64,000 nucleotides of DNA, taken from assembly GCA_023511915.1 (NCBI GenBank), contig JAIMAN010000005.1, positions 1 to 64,000 on the forward strand. The letters run 5' to 3'. Below the pieces are notes generated by a model. The model had not been told where the DNA came from, made no database searches, and saw nothing but the letters and a program-made list of their open reading frames with translations. Numbering within the stretch: the first letter of the stretch is position 1; each line of letters begins with the position of its first letter. Source of the DNA: Armatimonadota bacterium. Its GTDB lineage: Bacteria > Armatimonadota > Fimbriimonadia > Fimbriimonadales > GBS-DC. Position numbers and translations under genes: made by a program. Positions 7,914-10,631 of the stretch are shown here, piece by piece.

Positions 7914-7982
7914 AACGCCTCGCGAAACCGCAGGAACCTGCCGACAATAATCTGCGTTAATATCCATAGACAGGGGGCATCT

Positions 7983-10631
7983 ATGACGCAGGCTGAACGC
8001 GCCGAACTGGAACGCTGGATCGAGATGATCTACGAAAAAGCGCTGGAGATGGGCTTAGACCCGTTCCCCGTGCATTTCGAGGTCGCGCCCGCCCATGTGA
8101 TTTACGAACTGGGCGCATACGCCCTGCCCGCGCGATTCTCGCACTGGACTTTCGGGCGCGACTACCATGTGCAAAAGACCATGTACGAATATGGCGTCAG
8201 CCGCATCTACGAACTGGTCTTCAACTGCGACCCCTCCCAAGCGTTCCTGCTCGATGTCAACGACATGCTGGCGCACAAGTTGGTCGTCGCCCATGTGTAC
8301 GGGCACTCGGACTTTTTCAAGCACAACATCTACTTCGAGCATACCGACCGCAAGATGATTGAGCGCGCCCGCCTGCACGCCGAGCGCATCCGCCACTACG
8401 AGATGGTTCACGGACCGCTGGTGGTGGAGCAGTTCCTGGACGCCGTGCTATCGATAGAGGAACATATCGACCCTGTGCTGCCGACCTACGGCGCGCCCCC
8501 ACGCAAACAAGAAACCCAAGACGCCCCACCCGCAGGCGATACCTTCGAGGATCTGTTTTACATGGCGCAGCCCAAGCCCAAGCCCGAACCCAAGCCGCGC
8601 AGAATCCCCGAAGCGCCGCAGAAAGACCTGCTGCTGTTTGTTCGCGACCACTCGCGCGTGCTGGAAGACTGGCAACGCGACATCATCAGCATGATTCGCG
8701 AGGAGATGCTTTACTTTTTACCGCAAATTAAGACAAAGATAATTAACGAGGGCTGGGCATGTGCGACAGGCGACTCGCTGCTGATTACCTCGCGCGGGAT
8801 TATGCGCTTTGACGCCCTTTACGCCGAGCGTCAGTCGCCTGTGTCGGTCGCCGTCGGCGAGCCGTCGGCGTCCTGCGCTGTGCTGGATTATCACTGCCAG
8901 CCTGACACGCCCACGATACGCATCACGACGAAGCGCGGTTTCACGATTGAGGGAGCGCGCCAGCATCGGGTGCTGCTGCGCGACGGTCGCTGGGTGTATC
9001 TGCAAGATATTGCCATAGGCGATGAGGTCGCGTTAGCCGTGGGTACGGAGGTGTGGTCAGAGTCGTATCAGCCGCTGCCAACCGCACGCAGCCGTTCTGC
9101 AACCCTCGCCGATGTGGCGCGCGAGGCTGGCGTTTCGTACTACACAGTCTTGCGCCACCTGCGCGGGCGCAAGACCCTTCGCGCGGCGGCAATTGAGCAA
9201 GCCCTGAAACGCTACAACATTCAACCCACGAAACATGGGCGTGTCCTCACTACACGCCATAACCTGTGCTTGCCCGAATACTTGAATGAGGAGTTTGCCT
9301 ACCTGTTGGGGTATTTCGTTGGCGACGGAAACTTCACCAAATCGGGGATCGGCTTTACGACGGGCGACGCCGAAATCGTGGAGCGGCTGACAAGCCTGCT
9401 GCGCGGCTGGGGATGCAACCCGCGCGTGAAGTATGACCTGCAAAACAACAGCGCACGCTGGCGCATCGCGGTTCACTCGCGCACGCTGCGCGAACTGCTC
9501 ATCGCGATTGGGCTGTCCCCCGAACGCAAGGCGCGTCAGAAAATCGTACCGCCGATTGTGCTGCAGTCCCCGCGCGAGGTGGTTGCGGCGTTCCTGCGCG
9601 GCTACTTCGACGCCGACGCCTACGCAGGCAGCGCAGGGGTGATTCTCTCCAGCGCATCCGAGTCGCTGATTCGCACCGTGCAGACGATCCTACTCAACTT
9701 CGGCGTGCTCTCGTCGATCAGTCCGCCCCAACAAGGCGTTTACCAACTGGCGATTCGCGGCGTGTGGGCGCGCGTCTTCGCCGATAAAATCGGCTTCGGA
9801 CTCAAACGCAAGGTGGAAGCCCTGCAGCGGTATGTCGAAAACCGTCGCTGGTTCTGCCAGCAAGAGCCGTTCGATCCCGTAGTCACAATCGAGCGAGGGC
9901 GCGCCGATGTGTACGACATCACTGTCGCCGACGCGCACCGCTATGTCGCCAACGGGATGATTCACCACAACTCGTTCTGGCACGAGCGCATTCTGGAAGA
10001 CCTCCCCCTCACCCCCGACGAGCATGTGCAGTTCCGCAAGATGCACTCGGCGGTGATTCAGCCCGGCTCGCGCATGAACCTGAACCCCTACTATGTCGGC
10101 TACAAGGTGCTGCGCGACATCGAGCGGCGCTGGAACGGCGAGGTTGACCCCGACGAGGCGGAGACCGACTGGATGGGCTACCGCATCGAGCGCCCCGTCG
10201 GGCAGGGCATGCAGAAACTGTTCGAAGTGCGCACGCTGGAGTGCGACCAGACCTTCCTGCACAAGTACCTCACGGAGAAACTGGTGCGCGAGTTAGACCT
10301 CTACACCTACCGCGTGGAAGAGCATAACGGCGAGCTGGTGTGGGTGGTGGACGAGACCGACTGGCGCATCGTGCGCAACACGCTGGTAGACAACATGACC
10401 AACTTCGGCGCGCCTGTCATCACGGTCGAAGACGGCGACTGGGAGCATCGGGGCGAACTGTACCTGAAGCACCACTACGACGGCAAGCCGCTCGATATGC
10501 AACGCACGACGCGCTGCCTGCGCTATTTGGTGCGCCTGTGGGGACGCCCCGTGCATCTGGAGACCGTGATCGACGACGAGCAGGTGCTGCTCAGTTGCGA
10601 CGGGAACGCGATTGCGCAGCGCGCGTTGTAA
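7983..10631 (+). CDS. SpoVR-family protein interrupted by an in-frame intein
   Basis: An 882-residue precursor. Residues 1-259 and 664-882 together form a 478-residue SpoVR-family protein of normal length: PFPVHFEVAPAHVIYELGAY, HVYGHSDFFKHN, then NEGWA directly joined after splicing to SFWHERIL, and NLNPYYVGYKVLRDIE. SpoVR proteins are widespread and are linked to spore cortex in Bacillus and to stress or stationary-phase phenotypes elsewhere; their biochemistry is unsettled. The start follows AGGGGGCATCT and leaves a 128-nt gap after the prepilin; the track ORF begins 393 nt earlier, in the prepilin shadow. No PrkA kinase or YeaH-type partner is adjacent. The 404-residue insert is described separately. 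Confidence 0.93.
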   Translation: MTQAERAELERWIEMIYEKALEMGLDPFPVHFEVAPAHVIYELGAYALPARFSHWTFGRDYHVQKTMYEYGVSRIYELVFNCDPSQAFLLDVNDMLAHKLVVAHVYGHSDFFKHNIYFEHTDRKMIERARLHAERIRHYEMVHGPLVVEQFLDAVLSIEEHIDPVLPTYGAPPRKQETQDAPPAGDTFEDLFYMAQPKPKPEPKPRRIPEAPQKDLLLFVRDHSRVLEDWQRDIISMIREEMLYFLPQIKTKIINEGWACATGDSLLITSRGIMRFDALYAERQSPVSVAVGEPSASCAVLDYHCQPDTPTIRITTKRGFTIEGARQHRVLLRDGRWVYLQDIAIGDEVALAVGTEVWSESYQPLPTARSRSATLADVAREAGVSYYTVLRHLRGRKTLRAAAIEQALKRYNIQPTKHGRVLTTRHNLCLPEYLNEEFAYLLGYFVGDGNFTKSGIGFTTGDAEIVERLTSLLRGWGCNPRVKYDLQNNSARWRIAVHSRTLRELLIAIGLSPERKARQKIVPPIVLQSPREVVAAFLRGYFDADAYAGSAGVILSSASESLIRTVQTILLNFGVLSSISPPQQGVYQLAIRGVWARVFADKIGFGLKRKVEALQRYVENRRWFCQQEPFDPVVTIERGRADVYDITVADAHRYVANGMIHHNSFWHERILEDLPLTPDEHVQFRKMHSAVIQPGSRMNLNPYYVGYKVLRDIERRWNGEVDPDEAETDWMGYRIERPVGQGMQKLFEVRTLECDQTFLHKYLTEKLVRELDLYTYRVEEHNGELVWVVDETDWRIVRNTLVDNMTNFGAPVITVEDGDWEHRGELYLKHHYDGKPLDMQRTTRCLRYLVRLWGRPVHLETVIDDEQVLLSCDGNAIAQRAL
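8760..9971 (+). mobile_element. Intein with LAGLIDADG endonuclease inside SpoVR
   Basis: 404 codons in frame. The first residue is Cys with block A CATGDSLLITSRG; a block B-like GARQHRVLL follows near residue 65; block F VYDITVADAHRYVANGMIHHN ends in the His-Asn pair, and the +1 extein residue is Ser. Two LAGLIDADG motifs, LLGYFVGDG (about 182-190) and LRGYFDADA (about 279-287), keep the acidic catalytic residues, so the homing endonuclease may be active. A LacI-like helix-turn-helix (TLADVAREAGVSYYTVLRHL, about 115-150) lies between the splicing and nuclease parts. Insertion is at the conserved NEGWA/SFWH motif of SpoVR, as expected for an intein in an essential-looking motif. Confidence 0.95.

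Follow-up and report, generated by a model that had tools for sequence, protein, structure and literature searches.

Does the segment that interrupts the spoVR gene of an Armatimonadota bacterium belong to the SpoVR protein, or is it an intein that would remove itself from it, and if so, did it arrive at its site by homing? The gene lies in a stretch of 64,000 nucleotides, hereafter called the window. SpoVR is a stress- and sporulation-linked protein, outside replication, repair and recombination in the usual sense. Inteins have been described as concentrated in proteins of those three processes (PMC5874633).

The first-pass annotation had read the gene as a SpoVR reading frame carrying a 404-codon in-frame insert. 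Its coordinates, lengths and motifs proved correct on reading the open frame, on profile searches and on an alignment of 28 SpoVR inteins, hereafter A1 (Table 1). Deleting the insert in silico yields, as that annotation had predicted, a 478-residue SpoVR in which ...KIINEGWA is joined to SFWHERILED.... In Pfam the open frame gives a full-length match to the SpoVR family PF04293 (411 bits), split into two stretches that flank the intein, and the insert itself matches Intein_splicing (E 5e-10) and LAGLIDADG_3 (PF14528, E 1e-23). A search of the open frame against NCBIfam returned the intein C-terminal model TIGR01443 and many intein-containing proteins. The predicted spliced host is thus a full-length member of PF04293, from which it differs in that most members of the family have no intein. 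Profile and motif matches, the predicted fold and the comparison with empty sites all identify the insert as an intein. No prkA directly adjoins the gene in the window, where the neighbors, judged by eye, are pilin-like and glycosyltransferase-like; the prkA of the same genome lies on another contig (G000:C120:6649-7722).

Table 1. Parts of the interrupted spoVR gene, in window coordinates
Feature	Position	Strand	Remarks
Intein-containing spoVR	7983..10631	+	882 codons plus stop, open in frame throughout; precursor 882 aa
Likely ribosome-binding site AGGGGG	7972..7977	+	read from sequence; ATG start downstream
N-extein, 259 codons, ending ...INEGWA	7983..8759	+	PF04293 positions 3-273
Intein, 404 codons, Cys1 to Asn404	8760..9971	+	class-1
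Splicing block A, CATGDSLLIT	8760..8789	+	alignment A1; Cys1 invariant in 28
Splicing block B around His69, EGARQH	8943..8972	+	His69 invariant in 28; Ala66 at usual Thr
LacI-type helix-turn-helix insert, about intein residues 112-152	9093..9215	+	PF00356 and model helices
First LAGLIDADG motif LLGYFVGDG, Asp189	9303..9329	+	alignment A1; PF14528
Second LAGLIDADG motif LRGYFDADA, Asp286	9594..9620	+	alignment A1; PF14528
Splicing blocks F and G, VYDITVADAHRYVANGMIHHN	9909..9971	+	A1 invariants; TIGR01443
C-extein, 219 codons, starting SFWHER (Ser+1)	9972..10628	+	PF04293 269-406 at 9972-10409
SpoVR_C PF24755 in C-extein	about 10413-10568	+	Pfam profile match

Of the features expected of a class-1 intein, the insert has an N-terminal nucleophile (Cys1), Asp386 in block F, His403-Asn404 in block G and Ser+1 in the C-extein. 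Cys1, His69, Val384, Asp386, His393, His403 and Asn404 are invariant across the 28 inteins of A1. The TxxH motif of block B retains its histidine, while its threonine is replaced by alanine; the relatives in A1 likewise have no threonine there, and splicing may be slower in its absence. The two LAGLIDADG motifs of the endonuclease are intact, both acidic residues (Asp189 and Asp286) being kept.

A LacI-type helix-turn-helix, overlooked in the earlier reading, follows block B and precedes the first LAGLIDADG motif. The PF00356 match (E 1.5e-5, residues 115-143) falls slightly below Pfam's own cut-off, and the AlphaFold model places three helices at intein residues 116-151. LacI matches occur in 10 of the 28 SpoVR inteins, and further members match other helix-turn-helix families, 9 of them the transposase-type HTH_Tnp_1. 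The model of the intein (pLDDT 91.9) has a Hint fold and matched intein structures with a Foldseek probability of 1.00, its top PDB matches being the endonuclease-bearing inteins TliVMA, PhoVMA, PI-TkoII, PI-PfuI and PI-SceI. TliVMA and PhoVMA (PDB 7qsu, 7qss, 7qst), the closest in sequence and fold, likewise nest a double-LAGLIDADG endonuclease in a Hint domain. They differ in their host, the archaeal V-ATPase subunit A, and share 18-20% identity with the SpoVR intein, which is distinguished by a helix-turn-helix of LacI type placed after block B and ahead of the first LAGLIDADG motif. Since accessory domains resembling a helix-turn-helix are known in TliVMA and PI-TkoII (PMC8966425), the one in the SpoVR intein is a variation rather than a new principle. 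PI-SceI, the yeast VMA1 intein, also combines splicing and endonuclease in one protein and carries an accessory DNA-binding region inserted within its Hint domain (PMC8966425), but its host and its kind of accessory region are different, and identity is 12-15%.

The insertion site was compared with 115 intein-free SpoVR proteins. N255, E256, G257, A259 and H263 show no variation among them and W258 nearly none, and windows around the site have the lowest entropy in SpoVR, ranking among the best of 466. The first-pass annotation had taken EGWASFWH to be functionally critical. As a statement of conservation this stands for the five invariant positions, whereas +1 (S, T or C) and +2 (F, Y, L or I) vary. 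At +1, 114 of the 115 carry Ser, Thr or Cys, so a usable nucleophile is nearly always present. The site chosen by the intein marks the SpoVR motif as probably essential, as judged from sequence. A PDB sequence search with the N-extein found no relative, and no solved SpoVR structure was found. Split family matches from Armatimonadota, Chromatiales, Ktedonobacteria, Chloroflexia and Acidobacteriota gave no evident second insertion site in SpoVR. Two members of the genus, L076 (genome G161) with NEGWATLFH and L077 (G171) with NEGWATLVH, are unusual after the site, where W is otherwise nearly fixed; these sites might be homing-resistant.

Empty and filled sites, which the earlier reading had proposed to look for, both occur within the genus. 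Among 11 genomes with a full-length spoVR, two are filled (the window and G163, locus L007) and nine are empty. The G163 intein lies at exactly the same codon, and that genome is complete and in one contig, so the insert is neither a chance feature nor an artifact of assembly. The junctions between filled and empty genes are exact, with no residue gained or lost. The exact junction, and the many SpoVR proteins that lack the segment, speak strongly against its being an ordinary SpoVR domain, an alternative the earlier reading had itself raised.

In the host tree the window and G163 spoVR genes are sisters, which would suggest a single ancient gain; that possibility was set aside because the two inteins are too divergent. 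They differ at 92 of 190 fourfold sites (48%), compared with 44 of 209 in the exteins (21%, p 9e-9) and 1180 of 4786 in 25 neighboring genes (25%; p 6e-12 against the intein). Correspondingly, dS is 1.03 for the intein (CI 0.82-1.35) and 0.39 for the exteins (0.31-0.50), and the intein value exceeds those of all other single genes compared (0.15-0.63). The two inteins are as divergent as SpoVR genes are between genera of the family. The excess over exteins and neighbors indicates that at least one of these congeneric inteins was probably acquired or replaced independently, as recurrent homing predicts; this speaks for a homing element and against an ancestral domain. Differing codon constraint or mutation could account for part of the higher dS, although no neighboring gene reaches it. 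The intein dN/dS of 0.125 (0.06 for the exteins) indicates that it is still constrained. A co-conversion tract, considered on account of reduced extein dS near the intein, was rejected: simple co-conversion does not account for greater divergence in the intein than on either side of it, and the segments compared are short. At the phylum level the intein tree largely follows the host tree, so inheritance over long vertical lines or within clades also plays a part. L033 is discordant, its host grouping with Chloroflexota and its intein with Acidobacteriota and Armatimonadota.

A DNA pattern for NEGWA-C-xx-G-[DE] was searched in GTDB contigs. SpoVR with an intein starting at the same codon accounted for 35 of the 37 matches, from Chloroflexota, Pseudomonadota, Acidobacteriota, Armatimonadota, Planctomycetota and one bin labeled Actinomycetota; 27 of the 35 were traced to the C-terminal junction. 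In whole-genome searches, counting split matches by eye, the site was filled in 4 of 59 SpoVR-bearing genomes of Armatimonadota, 4 of 93 of Chromatiales, 14 of 45 of Ktedonobacteria and at least 28 of 91 of Chloroflexia, and in a sample of Acidobacteriota in 4 of 56. The part of the literature that was searched, papers rather than intein databases, contained no link between inteins and SpoVR. The earlier remark that a SpoVR host is uncommon therefore holds for that literature but not for nature, where such inteins are frequent in several classes. Host and insertion site are apparently unreported, and the breadth of their occurrence was unexpected. In the Chloroflexus group (L003, L011, L024) the inteins are 274-279 aa long and have lost the catalytic LAGLIDADG residues while keeping every splicing residue, which makes them candidate natural mini-inteins. 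Decay is also seen in the L023 intein, which has lost key residues.

The +1 position differs between empty and filled proteobacterial genes. Intein-free Chromatiales genes have Thr or Ser in 44 cases and Cys in four (L108, L188, L200 and L201, reading NEGWACFWH), while Cys+1 is found in all eleven filled proteobacterial genes read to the C-terminal junction, and among the genes studied here it is otherwise confined to them. L200 is the sister of the filled L183 in the tree. A Cys+1 empty gene is either the trace of a lost intein or an allele more easily invaded; a loss scar is not forced, since two of the four lie far from filled genes.

A search of viral (IMG/VR) contigs with A1 found tailed-phage contigs whose SpoVR-family proteins have inteins at the same site, in L202 (NEGHA/SWVD, the slash marking the insertion), L203-L205 (NEGFA/SFFH), L206 (NEGWA/SYNH), and L207 and L250 (NEG[WF]A/TYWH). 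The contigs of L207 and L250 carry a terminase, that of L202 a head maturation protease, and the 335-kb contig of L204 a terminase-like match. Adjoining the L204 spoVR are a homing endonuclease and a fragment of a ribonucleotide-reductase gene that matches an intein domain. The L207 terminase, near spoVR, also matches intein or LAGLIDADG domains. DUF444 (YeaH family) adjoins SpoVR in L202, L206, L207 and L250, and PrkA in L206. The spoVR, PrkA and DUF444 set of L206 resembles bacterial yeaGH-ycgB gene sets, and the Thermus phages phiLo (L265) and MN1 (L266) share with it a spoVR beside a PrkA-type serine kinase. Carriage of spoVR by a phage has been described for RsoM2USA (PMC8504454). No intein-sized insert was found in SpoVR of phiLo, MN1 or four huge-phage records. 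In the tree the phage inteins fall among the bacterial ones, but at 24-35% identity they are distant and give no sign of a recent jump from phage to bacterium. The L207 and L250 inteins may represent a separate lineage that occupies this site; phage carriage of SpoVR inteins is plausible. The SpoVR site is a recurrent intein target across phyla and in some phages.

From sequence I infer with high confidence that the element is a canonical class-1 intein with a LAGLIDADG homing endonuclease, able to splice, cleave and home. According to this model, a full-length intein bearing endonuclease and helix-turn-helix invaded spoVR at one codon boundary within NEGWA(S/T)xWH. Once the precursor is translated, Cys1 would undergo an N-to-S acyl shift, the N-extein would be transferred to Ser+1, and Asn404 would cyclize with the assistance of His403; ligation of the exteins would then give the normal 478-residue SpoVR and free the 404-residue intein. 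The freed intein, directed by both its endonuclease and its helix-turn-helix, would cut intein-free spoVR alleles, and recombination would copy the intein into the cut allele. Such a selfish element would persist at a conserved site that both supplies targets and punishes imprecise loss.

It has also been weighed whether host selection maintains the intein as a regulator whose conditional splicing, responding to redox, temperature or metal, holds SpoVR inactive until needed. An insertion in an invariant motif should indeed make the precursor inactive, conditional splicing is known in other inteins (PMC6195587, PMC5790916), and the Chloroflexus-group copies keep every splicing residue after losing their catalytic ones. 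These residues must be kept anyway for the sake of the host protein, however; the window intein retains both endonuclease Asp residues, and its kind is patchily present, in the genus and in classes with many intact empty genes. A regulatory role is accordingly quite unlikely. That the insertion is dead and inactivates spoVR in this strain, for which the Thr to Ala change in block B might speak, is very improbable, since the nucleophiles are all intact, the relatives share the change, and the dN/dS values suggest constraint on intein and exteins alike. The probability is close to negligible that a bacterial-intein-like (BIL) or other Hint domain processes SpoVR without ligation, or that the segment is an ordinary SpoVR domain. 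The Hint fold is shared with BILs, but these are found in variable host regions (PMC5874633) and this site is invariant; the insert contains a LAGLIDADG endonuclease and is followed by the nucleophile Ser+1, and the segment is absent from most SpoVR with no residue gained or lost.

With this predicted splicing and homing element, SpoVR is a non-replication host whose site occurs empty, full, endonuclease-dead and miniature, a single genus having both the filled and the empty allele. In two whole bacterial classes about one in three genomes with SpoVR has the intein at this one codon boundary, as do phages, which provides a test case for site choice, spread and possible host regulation. A wider proposal, which I consider unlikely, is that SpoVR is a major unlisted intein niche beyond DNA replication and repair, common to several bacterial phyla and to phages bearing DUF444(yeaH)-spoVR (one with prkA), that these phages are carriers, and that some endonuclease-less Chloroflexus inteins are conditional switches on a stress-survival protein.

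The same genome holds a second intein, in the MutS P-loop at GPNMSGK/S (G000 contig C59:3844-7782, L079). It too bears LAGLIDADG and interrupts a conserved motif, and is 36-37% identical to the SpoVR intein over the matched parts; its host, unlike SpoVR, is a classical DNA-repair protein, interrupted at its P-loop. The MutS site is empty in G163 and most congeners, while G171, G161 and G165 seem to have a related insert.
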